In this document: one piece after another, positions 27,420 through 36,153 of the stretch
Layout of the letters: the number at the start of each line of letters is the position of its first letter
Position numbering within the stretch: the first letter of the stretch is position 1
Assembly (NCBI RefSeq): GCF_004571075.1
Contig: NZ_SPQP01000038.1
Location: 1 to 36,281, forward strand
Length of the DNA: 36,281 bases
Direction: 5' to 3'
Source: Blastococcus sp. TF02A-35
GTDB taxonomy: Bacteria; Actinomycetota; Actinomycetes; Mycobacteriales; Geodermatophilaceae
Translations under genes and position numbers: made by a program
The notes under the pieces: generated by a model
What the model was told of the DNA's origin: nothing
What the model saw: the letters and a program-made list of their open reading frames with translations, nothing else
The model's database searches: none

Positions 27420-27537
27420 GCCGCGACCTGCAGTGATCACGGGTGCGCACCGGCCGGCTCCGTGCCGTCACGCTCTCGGCGTGTCGCGGAAAGGTCACAG
27501 CTCACCACGCGGCGGGGGTGCTGCCGGAGAACCGGGT

Positions 27538-27543
27538 TAGGGT
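27538..27543 (+). promoter_or_regulatory. Putative -10 element of the liv operon
   Basis: TAGGGT, 32 nt upstream of the livH GTG. With the GGGAG at 27566-27570 this would give a normal leadered transcript. No convincing -35. Confidence 0.35.
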
Positions 27544-27575
27544 CCGTCACTCCATTCATCCGCCTGGGAGGTCGA

Positions 27576-28931
27576 GTGACGCACCCGACGGACCGTGTCC
27601 GCCGGCACGGTCGACGCAGCAGGTCTGCATCAGCAGGTCTGCCGACGCCGGGCAGCGCCCGGCGCCGCAGGGGCCAGACGGCCCTGCGCCTGCTGCTGGT
27701 CGCGCTGTTCACCGCAGGCCTCGCCGCGCTGACCCCCGGGGTCGCGCAGGCCGAGGGAGAGCAGGTCTCCGGCACGCTGCGCACCAGCGCCAGCGGCCCC
27801 ATCGAGGGCGTCGAGGTCGTCGTGGCGACGCCGGACGGCGACGAGGTCGGCACCGACGAGACCGACGGGAGCGGCCGGTTCGCCGTCCCCGTCCCGGGGC
27901 CGGGCCAGTACACGGTCACCGTCCCGGAGGACGCGCTCCCCGACGGCGTGGAGTTCGCCTCGGGCAACACCCGCACCGTCACCGTCGACCCCGGCCGCAA
28001 CCAGGGCGTGATCATCGGCCTGGACGACGGCAGCCGCGAGAGCGGCAGCGGCACGGTGCGCTGGGTGCAGCTGCTGGTCGACGGCCTCCGCTTCGGCCTG
28101 CTGATCGCCATGGCCGCGGTCGGGCTCTCCCTGATCTTCGGCACCACGGGGCTCACGAACTTCGCCCACGGCGAGCTGGTCACCATCGGCGCGATCGCCG
28201 CATGGTTCATCAACGTCGAGGGAGGCGTGCCGCTCATCCCGGCCGCGCTCCTCGCGATGGTGATCGGCGCGGTGGTCGGCTTCGCGAACGAGCGGCTGCT
28301 GTGGCGCCCGCTCCGCCGTCGCGGCACCGGCCTCGTGGCGGCGCTGGTCATCTCGATCGGCCTGTCGCTGCTGCTCCGGTACGCCTACCAGATCTTCTTC
28401 GGCGGCCGGTCCGAGGCCTACGCGGACTACCGCGGGCAGCGGGCGGTCGACTACGGGCCGTTCAACCTGACGGACAAGGACCTCTACTCGATCATCATCG
28501 CGCTGGTCGTCCTCGTCCTGGTCGCGCTCATGCTGCAGCGCACCAAGATCGGCAAGGCGATGCGGGCGGTCGCCGACAACCGCGACCTGGCCGCCTCCTC
28601 GGGCATCGACGTCAACCGCGTGATCCTGGTCGTCTGGATGATGGGCGGGGCGCTCGCGGCGCTCGGCGGCGTGCTCCTGGGCCTGTCCGACGAGGTCCAG
28701 TGGGACATGGGCTTCCGGCTCCTGCTGCTGATGTTCGCCGGCGTCACCCTCGGTGGCCTGGGTACCGCCTACGGCGCGCTGGTCGGCAGCCTCGTGGTCG
28801 GTGTGTTCGTGCAGATGTCCACCCTGGTCATCCCGAACGACATCAAGTACGTCGGCGGCCTCCTGCTGCTGATCGTGATCCTCATGGTCCGCCCGCAGGG
28901 CATCCTCGGCAGCCGGGTTCGGGTGGGTTGA
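27576..28931 (+). CDS. livH: Branched-chain amino acid ABC permease LivH with an exported N-terminal domain
   Basis: 451 residues from GTG 27576 (GGGAG 5 nt upstream). Residues 1-35 are basic; 36-59 form a signal-peptide-like segment ending AQA; 62-148 read as a beta-sandwich of the carboxypeptidase-regulatory/CNA-B type (SGTLRTSASGPIEGVEVVV, TDETDGSGRFAVPVPGPGQYTVTV, TLPDG-like ALPDGV). From about 163 to the end is an ordinary LivH permease of 289 residues: FGTTGLTNFAHGELVTIGA, the cytoplasmic RAVADNRDLAASSGI loop that contacts the ATPases, and GGLGTAYGALVGSLVVG. The usual LivH has only the permease part. The extra domain would face outward, on the side where the binding protein docks. First gene of livHMGF. 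Confidence 0.92.
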   Translation: MTHPTDRVRRHGRRSRSASAGLPTPGSARRRRGQTALRLLLVALFTAGLAALTPGVAQAEGEQVSGTLRTSASGPIEGVEVVVATPDGDEVGTDETDGSGRFAVPVPGPGQYTVTVPEDALPDGVEFASGNTRTVTVDPGRNQGVIIGLDDGSRESGSGTVRWVQLLVDGLRFGLLIAMAAVGLSLIFGTTGLTNFAHGELVTIGAIAAWFINVEGGVPLIPAALLAMVIGAVVGFANERLLWRPLRRRGTGLVAALVISIGLSLLLRYAYQIFFGGRSEAYADYRGQRAVDYGPFNLTDKDLYSIIIALVVLVLVALMLQRTKIGKAMRAVADNRDLAASSGIDVNRVILVVWMMGGALAALGGVLLGLSDEVQWDMGFRLLLLMFAGVTLGGLGTAYGALVGSLVVGVFVQMSTLVIPNDIKYVGGLLLLIVILMVRPQGILGSRVRVG

Positions 28932-28934
28932 GCA

Positions 28935-29922
28935 ATGGGTGAGTTCATCGACGCACTGGCCATCGCCGTCAAGGCGGGCATCGGCTTCCAGGCCGTGTTC
29001 CTCGCCCTGCTGGCGCTCGGCATCAACATGCAGTTCGGCTACGCCGGCCTGCTGAACTTCGGGCAGATCGCCTTCGCGCTGGTCGGCGCGTACGGCATCG
29101 CCGTCTCGGTCAGCCAGTGGGGCCTGAACTTCTGGGCCGGCGTCGCGATCGGCCTCGCCGCCGCGGTGGCGCTGGCACTGCTCCTCGGCCTGCCGACGCT
29201 GCGGCTGCGCGCGGACTACCTCGCCATCGCCACCATCGCGACGGCGGAGGGCCTGCGCCTGCTGTTCCGCTCGGTGTCGGCCACGCCGGTCACCAACGGC
29301 TCCCGCGGCATCTCCGGCTTCAACAGCGGCTTCGTCGAGCTGGCGCCCTGGGACACCGGCCGCCGCTACGACATCCTCGGCGTCCGCTGGAGCGGCGCCG
29401 ACCTGTGGGTGGCCGCCGTCGGCTGGACGCTGGTCGCCCTCGGCTGCCTCCTGGTGTGGGCGCTGGTCCGCAGCCCCTGGGGCCGGGTCGTGAAGTCGAT
29501 CCGCGAGGACGAGGACGCCGTGCGCGCCCTGGGCAAGAACGTCTACGTCTACAAGATGCAGGCGCTGGTGCTCGGTGGTGTCTTCGGCGCCCTGGGCGGC
29601 ATGATCTACGCCGTGGGCACCGGCTCGGCGACGCCGGACCAGTACCAGAACGCCAACACGTTCCTGGCCTACGCCGCCCTCATCCTCGGCGGCGCCGCAC
29701 GGGTCCTCGGCCCTGTCGTCGGCGCGATGCTGCTGTACTTCATCATCCAGTTCGCCGACTCCGGGCTGCGGAGCCTGATCGAGACCGGCGTCATCCCGGA
29801 GGGTCTGCTCACGACGACCGACGTCGCCCAGATCCGCTTCGTCCTGATCGGCCTGGGGCTGATCCTGCTGCTGGTCTTCCGGCCGCAGGGCATCTTCGGT
29901 GACCGTCGAGAGGTGATGCTCG

Positions 29923-29933
<11 letters not shown>
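28935..29933 (+). CDS. livM: Branched-chain amino acid ABC permease LivM
   Basis: 332 residues, starting 3 bp behind the livH stop. It has about eight hydrophobic segments with family motifs LGINMQFGYAGLLNFGQIAFALVGAY, LPTLRLRADYLAIATIATAEGLRL, the ATPase-contact loop SIREDEDAVRALGKNVYVYKMQALVLGG and the closing GLGLILLLVFRPQGIFG. It should form a heterodimeric channel with LivH. The 3' end overlaps livG by 11 nt. No unusual domain is seen here, in contrast to livH. Confidence 0.94.
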
Positions 29934-30917
<984 letters not shown>

Positions 30918-30921
<4 letters not shown>

Positions 30922-31769
30922 GCGAGCCCGTGTTCGAGGTCGACGAGAGCGGCGAGGAGCTCACCCGCGCCGACACCGCGCAGAGCGCCGAGCTCTCCCC
31001 CGCCGAGAAGGCGGCCACGCGCGAGGAGCACGCCCGCCTCGCCGAGGGCGCCCTCGTGCGCGCCGACGAGCTGGTCGCCGGCTACGTGCCGGGGGTGAAC
31101 ATCCTCCGCGGCTGCGACTTCTACCTGCAGGAGGGCGAGCTCGTCGGCATCATCGGCCCGAACGGGGCCGGCAAGTCGACGCTGCTCAAGACCCTCTTCG
31201 GCCTGATCCCGGTCCGGTCGGGCTCGGTGACCCTGCGGGGCGAGAACATCACCTCGGCCCCCGCGCACCGGCTGGTGTCGCTCGGGGTCGGGTACGTGCC
31301 GCAGAACAACAACGTGTTCCCCTCGCTGAGCATCGAGGAGAACATGCAGATGGGCGTCTACCTGCGCCCGAAGACGTTCAAGGACCGGTTCGACTACGTC
31401 GCCGAGCTGTTCCCGATGCTGGGTGAGCGCCGCAGGATCAAGGCGGGCTCGCTGTCCGGCGGTGAGCGGCAGATGGTCGCCATGGGCCGGGCGCTGATGA
31501 TGGACCCGTCGGTGCTGCTGCTCGACGAGCCCTCGGCCGGCCTCTCCCCCGCCTACCAGGACGAGGTGTTCATCCGCTGCCGGCGGATCAACGCCACGGG
31601 CGTCTCGATCATCATGGTCGAGCAGAACGCGCGTCGCTGCCTGCAGATCTGCGACCGCGGGTACGTCCTGGACCAGGGCCGCAACGCCTACACGGCGACC
31701 GGCGAGTCCCTGATGCACGACCCGAAGGTCATCGAGCTCTACCTCGGCACGCTGGCCAAGGCCTACTGA
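30918..31769 (+). CDS. livF: Branched-chain amino acid ABC ATPase LivF
   Basis: 283 residues. The ABC domain begins near residue 47 and carries Walker A GPNGAGKS (about 80-87), Q-loop GYVPQNNNVFPSLSIEEN, signature LSGGERQMVAMGRALM, Walker B VLLLDEPSAGLSP and the switch region IIMVEQNARR. LivF is normally about 235 residues; the extra length is an acidic N-terminal leader of about 46 residues (VDESGEELTRADTAQSAELS and more) of no known fold. LivG has comparable extensions, so the pair may interact through them (speculative). It is the last gene of the operon; a bulged hairpin 15 bp downstream should end the transcript. Confidence 0.94.
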
Positions 31770-32144: not shown

Positions 32145-33470
32145 TCAGCGCTGCGGGCCGATGCCCTGGGCGTTGAGGCCCTCGATGATGCGAGCCGACT
32201 CGTCGAAGCCGATGACCACGACGGCGTCGGGGTTGAGCTCGACCATCTGCTGCACCTCGGCGTCGTAGTCCGACGCCGTGGGGTCGTAGATGACCAGCTC
32301 GATGCTGTCCTCGGCGAGACCGCTGTTGGTCAGGTTCTCGACCAGCTTCTCCGCCAGGCCCGTGCCGTAGGAGTCGTTGCGGGCCAGGATGCCGATGGTG
32401 TTCGCGCCATCCTCGATGATGAGGTCGGCGAGAGCGCTCGACTGCAGCGTGTCCGGCGGCGCGGTCCGGAAGTACAGACCGTTGTCGTTGTAGGTCGTGA
32501 ACTCGTCGGAGGTGTTGGCCGGCGAGATCTGGACGACCCCGGCACCGGTGATCTTGTCGATGACCGTGCGGGTGACCGCCGAGGACGCGGCGCCGACGAT
32601 CACGTCGACGTTCTGCTGCAGCAGGTTGTCGACCGACTGGGTGGCGATGTCGGTCGAGGTGTCACCCGAGTCGCGCTGGATGAGCTGGACCGGCTGGCCG
32701 AGCACGCCACCGGCCTCGTTGATCTCCTGCACGGCCAGGTCGGCACCGGCGATCTCCGGGGGGCCGAGGAAGGCCAGGTCACCGGTCTGCGGGAGCAGGG
32801 TGCCGATGATCAGCGGGTCGGTCGAGGTGGCACCCGGAGCCGCAGCGGCCGGGCCCTCGTCGGAGGCGGCGTTGGCCTCGTCACCGGCGAGCACGTACTG
32901 CGTGTCGTCGGAGATGGTGTTGTCGTCGCCGAACTCGAGGATGCCGAAGCTGGCCCGCGAGGGCTCGCCCGGCTCGGTGAAGGCCAGCGGGCCGGACACG
33001 CCGTCGTAGTCGGGGTTGCCGCCGCCGTCGACGATCTCCTTGCAGGACGCGAAGTCCTCGCAGGTGTCGCCACCGAAGGTCACGCCGTTGATGTACGGCG
33101 CGAAGACGGCCGGGTCCGTGGAGCCGGCCAGGGACGACGCGATCGCCGCGATCATGATGGCGTCGTAGGTCTCGCCCGCGTAGTTGAAGTCCTCCAGCGC
33201 GGGGTCGATCTCCAGCAGCCGGCTGGTGAAGTCGTCGCCGAGCTGCGTGAGCGGCGTGGTGCCGCGCATGCCGGCCAGGGAGCCCTCCTCGGTGAAGGAC
33301 TCACCCAGGGCGTTACCCATGTTGCCGTCGGTGCCGTAGACGTTGACCTGCTTCTCGCCGCTGTCGCCGCCGTCGGCGGTGTCGCCACCGTCGCCGCCGC
33401 CGCAGGCGGTGAGGGCGAGGAGGGCGGCACCGGTCACGGCGATGCCTCGGGCAGTGGTGCCAGTGCGCAT
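32145..33470 (-). CDS. Circularly permuted branched-chain amino acid type ABC substrate-binding lipoprotein
   Basis: 441 residues from ATG 33470 (GGGAG 7 nt upstream). A lipoprotein signal ends in the lipobox LTAC (Cys23). After a Gly/Asp linker, residues 40-196 match what is normally the C-terminal part of a type I (Peripla_BP_6, LivJ/LivK) binding protein: VYGTDGNMGNALGESF, FNYAGETYDAIMIAA, CEDFASCKEIV, GVSGPLAFTEPGEP and ASFGILEF. After an Ala/Asp/Pro linker (197-217), residues 218-440 match the normal N-terminal part: PLIIGTLLPQTGDLAFLGPP, ADLAVQEINEAGG, IVGAASSAV, QISPANTSDEF, TIGILARNDSYGTGLAE and DAVVVIGFDESARIIEGL. The protein stops at GIGPQR, just where the C-terminal part usually begins. 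Together the parts make a complete domain of about 380 residues in swapped order. The adjacent convergent livHMGF supplies the transporter. The order is seen directly; working function is inferred from the intact open frame. Confidence 0.88.
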   Translation of the reverse strand: MRTGTTARGIAVTGAALLALTACGGGDGGDTADGGDSGEKQVNVYGTDGNMGNALGESFTEEGSLAGMRGTTPLTQLGDDFTSRLLEIDPALEDFNYAGETYDAIMIAAIASSLAGSTDPAVFAPYINGVTFGGDTCEDFASCKEIVDGGGNPDYDGVSGPLAFTEPGEPSRASFGILEFGDDNTISDDTQYVLAGDEANAASDEGPAAAAPGATSTDPLIIGTLLPQTGDLAFLGPPEIAGADLAVQEINEAGGVLGQPVQLIQRDSGDTSTDIATQSVDNLLQQNVDVIVGAASSAVTRTVIDKITGAGVVQISPANTSDEFTTYNDNGLYFRTAPPDTLQSSALADLIIEDGANTIGILARNDSYGTGLAEKLVENLTNSGLAEDSIELVIYDPTASDYDAEVQQMVELNPDAVVVIGFDESARIIEGLNAQGIGPQR

Positions 33471-33698
33471 CAAGCAACTCCCAGTGTCATCTGACAGACG
33501 TCGGGCGCGCCCTGGAGGGCGAACCAGCCGGGGGGCGCCCGATCGGTGCGCAGAACCTAGCTTCCGTTCCCGACGTTCTGACCCGACCGGGAAGGGACCG
33601 TGATGAGGTCGTGACCTCGGTGTCCGCACCGTGGGAGGAGTTGCACGCAGGGTCACGGCCTCATGACGCGGCGCATCGACTGGCCCCGCGCGGTCCGG

Positions 33699-34298
33699 TC
33701 AGGCCGGCGCCTCACCCGTGGCCGTACCGCCGGTCAGGATGCTCTCCGCCAGGACCTTCATGCTCGTGCGCTGGTTCATCGCGGTCCGCTGGATCCACCG
33801 GAAGGCCTCCGCCTCGGTCATCCCCTGCTCGCTCATGAGCCGGCCCTTGGCCTGCTCGACCACCTTGCGGGTCTCCAGCCGCTCCTCCAGCGTGCGGACC
33901 TCGCCGTCCAGGGCGGCCATCTCGGCGAACCGGCCCCGGGCCACCTCGATCGCCGGCACGAGGTCGTTCTTCGAGAACGGCTTGACCAGGTAGGCCATGG
34001 CGCCGGCGTCCCGGGCCCGCTCCACCAGCTCCCGCTGGCTGAACGCGGTGAGCACGATGACCGGCGCGATCCTGGCCGAGGCGATCTGCTCGGCCGCGGA
34101 GAGCCCGTCGAGCACCGGCATCTGGATGTCGAGGATCACCAGGTCCGGCCGCAGCTCCTGGGCGCGGTCCACCGCCTGCTGACCGTCCCCGACCTCGGCG
34201 ACGACGCTGTACCCCTCCTCCTCAAGCATCTCCTTGAGGTCGAGGCGGATCAGCGCCTCGTCCTCGGCGATCAGAACGCGGATCGGCTCGCTGCTCAC
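33699..34298 (-). CDS. pdtaR: ANTAR-domain response regulator (PdtaR-like)
   Basis: 199 residues from GTG 34298. The receiver domain starts PIRVLIAEDEALIRLDLKEMLEEEGY, with the acidic pair in AEDE, the phospho-acceptor Asp57 in LVILDIQMP, VLTAFSQRELVERARDAGA and the lysine in YLVKPFSKNDL. A coiled linker with LETRKVVEQAKGRLM leads to an ANTAR RNA-binding domain (MTEAEAFRWIQRTAMNQRTSM). This matches PdtaR (Rv1626), the partner of the kinase PdtaS, which regulates by binding RNA hairpins near ribosome binding sites; PdtaS is not in this window. ATG 34331 is an alternative start, but the GTG has a TAGGCT -10 (34312-34307) 8 nt before it, which would make the message leaderless. Confidence 0.92.
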   Translation of the reverse strand: MSSEPIRVLIAEDEALIRLDLKEMLEEEGYSVVAEVGDGQQAVDRAQELRPDLVILDIQMPVLDGLSAAEQIASARIAPVIVLTAFSQRELVERARDAGAMAYLVKPFSKNDLVPAIEVARGRFAEMAALDGEVRTLEERLETRKVVEQAKGRLMSEQGMTEAEAFRWIQRTAMNQRTSMKVLAESILTGGTATGEAPA

Positions 34299-34306
34299 GA
34301 AGCGGC

Positions 34307-34312
34307 AGCCTA
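34307..34312 (-). promoter_or_regulatory. Putative -10 element for pdtaR
   Basis: TAGGCT on the minus strand, ending 8 nt before the GTG at 34298. Confidence 0.4.
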
Positions 34313-34373
34313 TCGGCGTCGGACAGCTCACACCGTCCCGCTACGCTTCTCCGGCGCCGGTCGCACCCGGCAC

Positions 34374-34447
34374 GCCCCCGTACCCCAATCGGCAGAGGGA
34401 GCGGATTCAAAACCCGCGCAGTGTGCGTTCGAGTCGCACCGGGGGCA
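34374..34447 (+). tRNA. tRNA-Leu (CAA) with a short variable loop
   Basis: 74 nt. The acceptor GCCCCCG pairs with CGGGGGC; the anticodon loop TTCAAAA gives CAA (codon TTG); the T-arm is GTGCG-TTCGAGT-CGCAC. The variable region is only five bases (GCAGT), whereas leucine tRNAs are normally type II with a long extra arm. The anticodon stem has an A-C mismatch next to the loop and the D-stem also has a C-A opposition. Discriminator A as for leucine; CCA is not encoded. The anticodon is clear, the amino-acid identity and function less so. Confidence 0.8.
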
Positions 34448-34494
34448 CCCCGCCGGGTCGCCGGACCCCTCCGGGGCCGGCTCGCCGCGGGCAA

Positions 34495-34500
34495 TACGCT
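34495..34500 (+). promoter_or_regulatory. Putative -10 element for the decarboxylase gene
   Basis: TACGCT ending 6 nt before the GTG at 34507; same hexamer and same spacing as at the DUF2804 gene. Confidence 0.4.
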
Positions 34501-34506
34501 CGGGCG

Positions 34507-36153
34507 GTGACCGAGTCCGTTCCGCACATGACCCCCGAGCAGTTCCGGCGCCACGGCCACGAGGTGGTCGACTGGGTCGCCGACTACTGGGAGCGCATCG
34601 GCTCCTTCCCCGTCCGCTCACAGGTCTCGCCCGGCGACGTCCGGGAGCAGCTCCCCGCGTCGGCCCCTGAGCAGGGCGAGCCGTTCGACGCGGTCCTGGC
34701 CGACCTCGACCGGGTCGTGCTGCCCGGCGTCACCCACTGGCAGCACCCCGGGTTCTTCGGCTACTTCCCCGCCAACACCTCGGGGCCCTCGGTGCTGGGC
34801 GACCTCGTCTCGGCCGGTCTGGGCGTGCAGGGCATGTCCTGGGTCACCAGCCCCGCCGCGACCGAGCTCGAGCAGCACGTCATGGACTGGCTGGCCGACC
34901 TGCTGGGCCTGCCGGAGTCCTTCCGCTCCACCGGCACCGGCGGCGGCGTCGTCCAGGACTCCAGCTCCGGCGCCAACCTCGTCGCCCTCCTCGCGACCCT
35001 GCACCGGGCCTCCGGCGGCGCCACCGTGCGCCAGGGGGTGCAGCCCGAGCGGGCGACCGTCTACGTCTCCAGCGAGACGCACTCCTCCATGGAGAAGGCC
35101 GTCCGGATCGCCGGCCTGGGCACCGAGGCGGTCCGCATCGTCGAGGTCGACGGCGACCTCGCCATGAGCCCCGGCGCCCTGGCCGCCCGCCTGGAGCGCG
35201 ACGTCGCCCGCGGGTACCGCCCGGTGCTCGTCTGCGCGACGGTCGGGACGACGTCGACCACCGCCGTCGACCCGCTCGCGGCCATCGGTCCCATCTGCCA
35301 GCAGCACGGCGTCTGGCTGCACGTCGACGCCGCCTACGCCGGGGTGAGCGCGGTCGCCCCCGAGCTGCGCGCGCTGCAGGCCGGCGTCGAGTGGGCCGAC
35401 AGCTACACCACCGACGCGCACAAGTGGCTGCTCACCGGGTTCGACGCGACCCTCTTCTGGGTCGCCGACCGCGCGGCCCTCACCGGCGCGCTGGCGATCC
35501 TCCCGGAGTACCTCCGCAACGCGGCCACCGAGGCCGGCGCGGTGGTCGACTTCCGCGACTGGCAGATCCCGCTGGGCCGGCGCTTCCGCGCGCTCAAGCT
35601 GTGGTTCGTGCTGCGCTGGTACGGCGCCGAGGGCCTGCGGGCGCACATCCGCGGGCACGTCGCGCTCGCCCAGGAGCTCGCGGGCTGGGCCGCGGCGGAC
35701 GAGCGGTTCGACGTCGTCGCGCCGCACCCGCTGTCGCTGGTGTGCCTGAAGCCGCGCTGGCCCGAGGGCGTGGACGCCGACGTCGCCACGATGACGCTGC
35801 TCGACCGGCTCAACGACGGCGGCGAGGTCTTCCTGACCCACACCACCGTCGCCAAGCAGCCGGTGCTCCGGGTCGCCGTCGGCTCCCCCGCCACCACGCG
35901 GGCGCACGTCGAGCGGGTCTGGACGCTGCTCACCGAGGGCCACGACTGGCTCGCCGCCGACTTCGCGGCCCAGGCCGCCGAGCAGGCCGCGGCCCGGGCC
36001 GCCGAGCGGGAGCGGGCCGAGCAGGAGCGGGCCGAGCAGGACCGCCGGCGCGCCGAGGCCCAGGCGGCCGAGGAGGCCGGGGTGACCGAGGAGGCCGGGG
36101 TGACCGAGGAGGCCGGGGTGACCGAGGAGGCCGGGGTGACCGAGGAGGCCTAG
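34507..36153 (+). CDS. PLP-dependent group II (aromatic amino acid type) decarboxylase
   Basis: 548 residues from GTG 34507. The fold-type I decarboxylase pattern is complete: the N-terminal EQFRRHGHEVVDWVADYWERI, VTHWQHPGFFGYFPANTS with substrate-side residues, TSPAATELEQHVMDWLADLLGLP, DSSSGANLVALLAT, the PLP-stacking SSETHSSMEKAV, VCATVGTTSTTAVDPL, the aspartate in HVDAAYAG, and the Schiff-base lysine in TDAHKWLLTGFDATLFW. It resembles aromatic-L-amino-acid decarboxylases (Dopa, Tyr, Trp or Phe); the substrate cannot be set by eye. The domain ends near residue 490. The tail is a coiled Ala/Glu/Arg-rich helix and four and a half copies of EEAGVT. The stop TAG (36151-36153) interlocks with the stop of the convergent transposase, so the natural C-terminus may have been altered there. 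Confidence 0.92.
   Translation: MTESVPHMTPEQFRRHGHEVVDWVADYWERIGSFPVRSQVSPGDVREQLPASAPEQGEPFDAVLADLDRVVLPGVTHWQHPGFFGYFPANTSGPSVLGDLVSAGLGVQGMSWVTSPAATELEQHVMDWLADLLGLPESFRSTGTGGGVVQDSSSGANLVALLATLHRASGGATVRQGVQPERATVYVSSETHSSMEKAVRIAGLGTEAVRIVEVDGDLAMSPGALAARLERDVARGYRPVLVCATVGTTSTTAVDPLAAIGPICQQHGVWLHVDAAYAGVSAVAPELRALQAGVEWADSYTTDAHKWLLTGFDATLFWVADRAALTGALAILPEYLRNAATEAGAVVDFRDWQIPLGRRFRALKLWFVLRWYGAEGLRAHIRGHVALAQELAGWAAADERFDVVAPHPLSLVCLKPRWPEGVDADVATMTLLDRLNDGGEVFLTHTTVAKQPVLRVAVGSPATTRAHVERVWTLLTEGHDWLAADFAAQAAEQAAARAAERERAEQERAEQDRRRAEAQAAEEAGVTEEAGVTEEAGVTEEAGVTEEA
36070..36150 (+). repeat. 18-bp tandem repeat, 4.5 copies, at the decarboxylase 3' end
   Basis: Units at 36070-36087, 36088-36105, 36106-36123 and 36124-36141, plus a half unit to 36150, are identical and encode EEAGVT each. 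They end exactly at the TAG stop and at the junction with transposase sequence. Confidence 0.95.

Follow-up and report, generated by a model that had tools for sequence, protein, structure and literature searches.

A naturally circularly permuted LivJ/LivK-type binding protein beside livHMGF in Blastococcus, with probably recurrent origin of the permutation

Most natural cases of circular permutation are deduced by comparison with remote homologues, after the traces of the rearrangement have been lost. Among type I binding proteins, one report describes TpMglB-2 (Tp0684) of Treponema pallidum as a natural circular permutant, a lipoprotein of the glucose-binding MglB family whose gene is clustered with ATP-binding cassette (ABC) importer genes and in which the first three strands of the N-lobe have moved to the C-terminus (PMC4990184). 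There it is named 'Type Ic', with relatives in Gram-positive bacteria; the sequence identity of the moved part is poor (13%) and its origin is left open, and a role in membrane anchoring is suggested (PMC4990184). Engineered permuted halves of ribose-binding protein show that the type I fold can, in some of its parts, accommodate relocated ends (PMC9815098). Here, we analyzed a stretch of 36,281 nt from Blastococcus sp. TF02A-35 (Geodermatophilaceae; assembly GCF_004571075.1, contig NZ_SPQP01000038.1; hereafter the window, to which all coordinates refer) that carries a circularly permuted LivJ/LivK-type binding protein gene. We propose, with a probability of about 0.82, that this gene encodes a permuted LivJ/LivK-type protein, predicted to be a lipoprotein and encoded beside livHMGF, which likely acts as an importer receptor and whose permutation is of recurrent origin.

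The coding sequence runs on the minus strand (32145..33470; 441 residues, ATG at 33470, stop codon at 32145-32147), and a putative ribosome-binding-site-like GGGAG, read from the sequence, lies 7 bases 5' of the ATG (33478..33482, minus strand). The chain order is signal peptide, C-part, linker and N-part, all on the same strand. Residues 1-39 (33354..33470) hold a predicted signal peptide, the tetrapeptide LTAC ending in Cys23, in a residue pattern which we take to be a lipobox, and a Gly/Asp-rich spacer; Cys23 is invariant across 96 aligned permuted proteins. The moved C-terminal part (residues 40-196; 32883..33353) starts just ahead of the conserved YGTDGN and is followed by a 21-residue, Ala/Asp/Pro-rich linker (residues 197-217; 32820..32882), which joins the former C-terminus to the former N-terminus. 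The N-terminal portion of the fold comprises residues 218-441 (32148..32819) and ends in GIGPQR, residues 218-440 being encoded by 32819-32151 and followed by Arg and the stop codon. An earlier note on this DNA had given the same coordinates and residue borders, and they proved exact when the ATG, the stop codon, both parts and the linker were re-read. Sequence, synteny, structure prediction and hundreds of listed relatives support its claim of a natural circular permutation from which no part of the fold is missing.

Profile searches see one side of this protein. PF13458 matches residues 222-439 at profile positions 4-217 of 343 only (Pfam, E 1.9e-34), and PF13407, which presumably includes MglB, gives E 0.06, below that profile's cut-off. 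When the protein is compared by phmmer with 1z15, the LIV-binding protein of E. coli, its residues 227-437 align with chain positions 10-218 and its residues 155-188 with positions 309-342, i.e. in swapped order, the latter match being weak (2.2 bits). Four more genes of the same genome exceed the PF13458 cut-off and span profile positions 1-340, 1-339, 2-335 and 3-291, a fifth place (3-117) stays below it, and the window gene is the only one over the cut-off that ends at position 218. The unpermuted paralogue that the earlier note had proposed to look for was not found as a close relative in this genome, which yielded one weak match and otherwise distant PF13458 genes. All 19 other loci read in the class have the N-part before the C-part and are thus unpermuted; their identity to the window protein reaches 65% in the N-part (L016; L numbers denote loci, G numbers genomes and f numbers families) and is 33-52% in the C-part (L028 to L030), rising to 55% among unpermuted loci fetched later (L176, L195). 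The protein is homologous to LIV/HAAT proteins over the whole domain, the N-half by Pfam and the C-half by unpermuted orthologues, but its order is not the normal N-to-C order. The Ser, Thr and acid of the cleft, presumably the residues that bind an amino acid, are conserved in alignments with relatives and lie on the two moved parts.

Structure prediction, another check that had been suggested, returned a confident two-lobe model of the window protein, with a predicted local distance difference test (pLDDT) score below 50 for residues 1-37 and mean values of 85-94 for blocks 191-220 around the linker. Sequential aligners match this model to the PDB over residues 216-441 only, and no whole-fold PDB match was obtained with them; the remaining fold was compared by eye via a control model of an unpermuted relative. 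The predicted fold elements of the window protein correspond nearly one-to-one to those of LivJ/LivK and other HAAT-type proteins. The permuted chain is accordingly predicted to adopt a two-lobe Venus-flytrap fold.

The new ends, placed by the earlier note between GLNAQGIGPQ and VNVYGTDGN, lie in a loop that is also cut in permuted genes of other families. The unpermuted chain reads ...AGIGPKDVQTYFVDGN... across this breakpoint 1 in the example L074. Permuted genes of f1, f59, f27, f37 and f29 mostly end 1-3 residues past GIG-x and start a few residues ahead of Y-x-x-DGN; those of f3 are without the GIGP letters, yet end and start at the same place. A search of 296 genomes of the phylum (40 with a match at 1e-60) and of 247 genomes of the class around G912 (18 at 1e-70) revealed eight permuted genes with a different cut, which end for instance in ...YGVDGNMGNALAENFEAGT and start with ...ALAGMKGTTP.... 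This second loop lies ~20 residues downstream of the first and is used in other families. In the model of the unpermuted relative, breakpoint 1 falls between helix 268-277 and strand 287-291 and breakpoint 2 between helix 297-302 and strand 312-316, both in what we take to be lobe II. Of the 344 permuted rows, a number that includes repeats, 340 carry the DGN segment at the head only and 4 at the tail only; none has it at both ends, as a trimming intermediate would.

The same order was found in related genomes, where the earlier note had proposed to seek it. A co-linear match of full or nearly full length is present in 80 of the 96 genomes of the window's family and in 12/12 genera (counted by hand), in some cases on single-contig assemblies; among the remaining genomes, three show partial matches in fragmented assemblies and 13 distant matches only or none at 1e-10. 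Within the class, 151 of 394 genomes match at 1e-30. Among the matches listed, at least nine genomes outside the window's family have a co-linear full-length match (f3, f27, f29 and f37), and most other class rows cover residues ~170-220 to 440 only. A permuted f3 gene is matched at 1e-50 by 49 of 200 genomes of the order, 23 of which belong to f3 itself with permuted loci. The first 93 loci, repeat fetches of the same gene included, comprise 53 permuted, 39 unpermuted and one distant paralogue left unclassified, and 35 further loci comprise 32 unpermuted, 2 undecided and 1 without a match. A protein search gave 7764 significant relatives among 8000 scored, of which the best 120 by similarity, the window's own protein included, are all permuted and bear names such as Blastococcus, Geodermatophilus and Modestobacter. 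Permuted f29/f27 queries gave two further best-120 lists, one with 120 permuted proteins and one with 46 permuted, 72 unpermuted and 2 unclassified; all three lists are ranked by similarity and yield no rates. These data support a family-wide, recurrent state rather than a single odd gene. In genus g4 a second permuted paralogue was observed, 63-64% identical to the window protein (L164 in G003; also G022, G036 and G050). Two proteins from short contigs, P0014 and P0026 (496 and 485 residues), repeat part of the start of the N-part, and these repeats may be assembly artefacts or partial duplications.

For the trees, N- and C-parts were excised, aligned separately and joined in normal order, and near-copies and duplicate fetches were dropped; for the approximately unbiased (AU) tests without breakpoint-2 genes, five rows were removed beforehand (four long-branch unpermuted ones and one duplicate). 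In a 111-row tree with an outgroup the permuted rows form three clades: clade A (f1, f3 and f59), clade B (f27, part of f37 and metagenome proteins) and clade C (f29), whose named relatives are Nocardioides, Marmoricola and Nocardioidaceae, among them loci of a Nocardioidaceae metagenome-assembled genome and of Marmoricola sp. Leaf446. This tree requires 3 changes of order, and 0% of 200 bootstrap trees need a single one (5th-95th percentile 3-4). A 107-row tree that includes the breakpoint-2 genes requires 6 changes, 5 of which are forced by starred branches (bootstraps 5-6). A single clade for all permuted proteins is rejected under the model used (p 7.1e-30; 39 versus 67 rows), as it is by the N-half alone (p 0.002) and by the C-half alone (p 0.0004); joining A with B (p 4.2e-4) or B with C (p 7.1e-8) is rejected as well. 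Clade A held as one clade has a log-likelihood 20.6 above that of the free quick tree. From these trees we infer that the permutation likely arose on at least three occasions in the loop that separates GIGP from Y-x-x-DGN; four to six origins are possible.

Several results weigh against this count. Starred branches of the 111-row tree alone force 2 changes only. Clades B and C are each broken up when the C-half is used alone, with 3 changes apiece, and clade A needs 2 changes when the N-half is used alone. The AU groups were named after the trees had been seen, and the pairs tested alone were A with B and B with C, without A with C. Holding the breakpoint-2 rows in one clade is not rejected (p 0.051), nor is holding clade A together with clade D, the main breakpoint-2 clade (p 0.29), so that A and D may share one event trimmed two ways. 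Within its family, clade C occurs in only 10 of 149 genomes, which are spread across six genera, so transfer or loss is mixed in. Because of the half-tree and AU results, the claim is limited to at least three origins.

The best-surviving alternative is one ancient permutation followed by several reversions or by spread through gene transfer. Parsimony counts alone cannot separate gain from loss, and the scatter of clade C and the inseparability of A and D fit such a history. It conflicts with the unpermuted outgroups, which root the trees in normal order, with the position of clade C among the unpermuted genes of its own family (66-75% identical in the N-half and 50-74% in the C-half), with the visibly different linkers of A, B and C, with the solved LIV proteins, all of which are unpermuted, and with the rejection of single-clade trees by the full-length protein as well as by either half taken alone. 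We regard a single ancient event as improbable. A little less probable still is a chimera, in which each part stems from its own binding-protein gene and the two genes were fused head to tail. In its favour are the noise in the C-half tree and the presence of distant paralogues in the genome; the first best unpermuted C-half matches were f2 genes (48-52%), f99 and f133 genes found later being slightly better (55%), which raises its probability very slightly. Against a chimera, the unpermuted genes that closely resemble one half of clade C also closely resemble the other and belong to the same bacterial family (for example L076, 73-74% for both), and the N-half tree groups clade A with two unpermuted rows (98*) that are unnamed in that tree; the two such rows of the whole-protein tree are the f2 loci L020 and L030, which are also among the better C-half matches of clade A. 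Misassembly or a decayed, functionless duplicate has next to no probability: the assembly is fragmented (87 contigs), yet independent genomes of relatives carry the same order, on which ground misassembly was rejected, and the open frame, the lipobox and the cleft residues are kept, with a ratio of nonsynonymous to synonymous substitution rates (dN/dS) of ~0.2 against near relatives. The ratios of 0.45-0.66 against more distant relatives lend our reading no help and are uninformative because synonymous sites are saturated.

The permuted gene faces a set of importer genes on the plus strand. These encode a LivH-type permease with an N-terminal carboxypeptidase-regulatory-like domain (27462..28931; PF02653, PF13620), a LivM-type permease (28935..29933; PF02653), a LivG-type ATPase (29923..30921; PF00005, PF12399) and a LivF-type ATPase (30918..31769; PF00005), whose gene is convergent with the binding-protein gene; upstream of the latter lies a gene for an ANTAR-domain response regulator (33699..34331, minus strand; PF00072, PF03861), which may control the transporter. 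The order in the window is polA, as we take it to be from its sequence, a 4HBT thioesterase gene, livH, livM, livG, livF, the convergent binding-protein gene and the ANTAR regulator gene. Neighbourhoods in other genomes were chosen to cover the clades, and genes between livF and the binding-protein gene lay outside the search. A convergent livF within ~2 kb was found in 17 of 22 breakpoint-1 (window included), 6 of 8 breakpoint-2 and 17 of 20 unpermuted neighbourhoods. Of the genes that the search covered, the one for the ANTAR regulator lies next upstream in 14 of 22 breakpoint-1 neighbourhoods and in 13 of the first 15 unpermuted ones, and no ANTAR gene was seen in 13 neighbourhoods examined later. 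The breakpoint-2 exceptions are one gene divergent from livH and another without nearby liv genes; the unpermuted ones are an f1 paralogue co-directional with its livF, a contig end and a locus without liv genes. Unpermuted orthologues hold the same locus in other families, and f37 holds both forms there (L131 and L162 versus L165 and L166). Since the liv neighbourhoods are shared, the permutation for the most part took place, or was swapped in, at this locus. The PF13620 domain of LivH, which sits behind a signal-peptide-like start, was considered as a partner of the permutation and dropped because tblastn finds PF13620 beside some permuted and some unpermuted genes. Elsewhere in the window, an 18-base tandem repeat of 4.6 perfect copies (36068-36150) lies in the 3' end of frame 34234-36153 and encodes a repeated EEAGVT tail.

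Judged by its genomic neighbourhood, the window protein likely works as the receptor of the LivHMGF importer. Speaking against this are the five of 22 breakpoint-1 neighbourhoods without livF (three of f3, one extra paralogue and one contig end). The f3 permuted genes L130, L157 and L158 have no livHMGF within ~7-10 kb and may be orphan receptors or servants of another importer; the permuted paralogue L164 has no liv genes nearby. Since the cleft acid, Ser and Thr are kept on the two moved parts, the rearranged chain would fold into the usual Venus-flytrap cleft and bind an amino-acid-like ligand. The permutation could have arisen by in-place tandem duplication of an unpermuted gene, after which the C-end of copy 1 would have been fused to the mature N-end of copy 2 and the outer parts of the fused pair lost. 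This origin, already offered in the earlier note, stays plausible in that tandem unpermuted copies exist at this locus in three other genomes, G226, G410 and G695 (L147, L151 and L152; fetched because search tables pointed there, and thus no rate), which are possible raw material for a permutation. In clade C, the linker leads into a stretch with GDG that is similar to the beginning of the mature protein in unpermuted relatives. Against this route, no fused duplicate intermediate was found among the loci examined. The main physical effect would be that the lipid anchor is attached to lobe II instead of lobe I, the old ends being closed by the linker. Lipoprotein-like signals are also present in unpermuted orthologues, and the permutation is therefore not explained by anchoring as such. 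We tentatively consider, while doubting it, that one receptor locus in Actinomycetota is a hot spot with four to six events in two neighbouring loops, selected for an anchor shift that alters presentation to LivHM.

Permuted and unpermuted orthologues share a neighbourhood here and are up to ~73% identical in both halves in one family (L076). Together with the tandem duplicates at some loci and a loop used in three clades that the tests keep apart, this opens circular permutation to direct tests of its route, of how repeatable it is and of why it is selected. Sequential profile and structure searches detect only half of such receptors, and the names of 286 of the 360 proteins in the three similarity-chosen lists do not reveal the chain order. 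The earlier note knew of no described natural permutation in this family. None was found for the LIV family in the literature searched by title and abstract start, mostly without subscription papers, and the words periplasmic, substrate-binding and ABC transporter are absent from the main text of the CIRPIN preprint as far as accessible (PMC12667903); for type I binding proteins more widely, a natural permutation has been described in TpMglB-2. The window protein shares with LivJ/LivK and HAAT-type proteins (PF13458; 1z15, 3ipc, 4gnr, 3td9) both halves, the cleft residues, the export signal and the livHMGF neighbours, and differs in its rotated chain order, with new ends in a loop and old ends closed by the 21-residue linker. 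Unlike that of the permuted ribose-binding protein halves, which are man-made, its change is natural and probably recurrent. The window protein and TpMglB-2 are both naturally permuted type I binding proteins, but the window protein belongs to PF13458 and not to the MglB-type sugar-binding subfamily. Its moved old N-part comprises residues 218-441, up to a later loop by the lobe limits we assume, instead of the first three N-lobe strands, and its unpermuted orthologues show both halves clearly.
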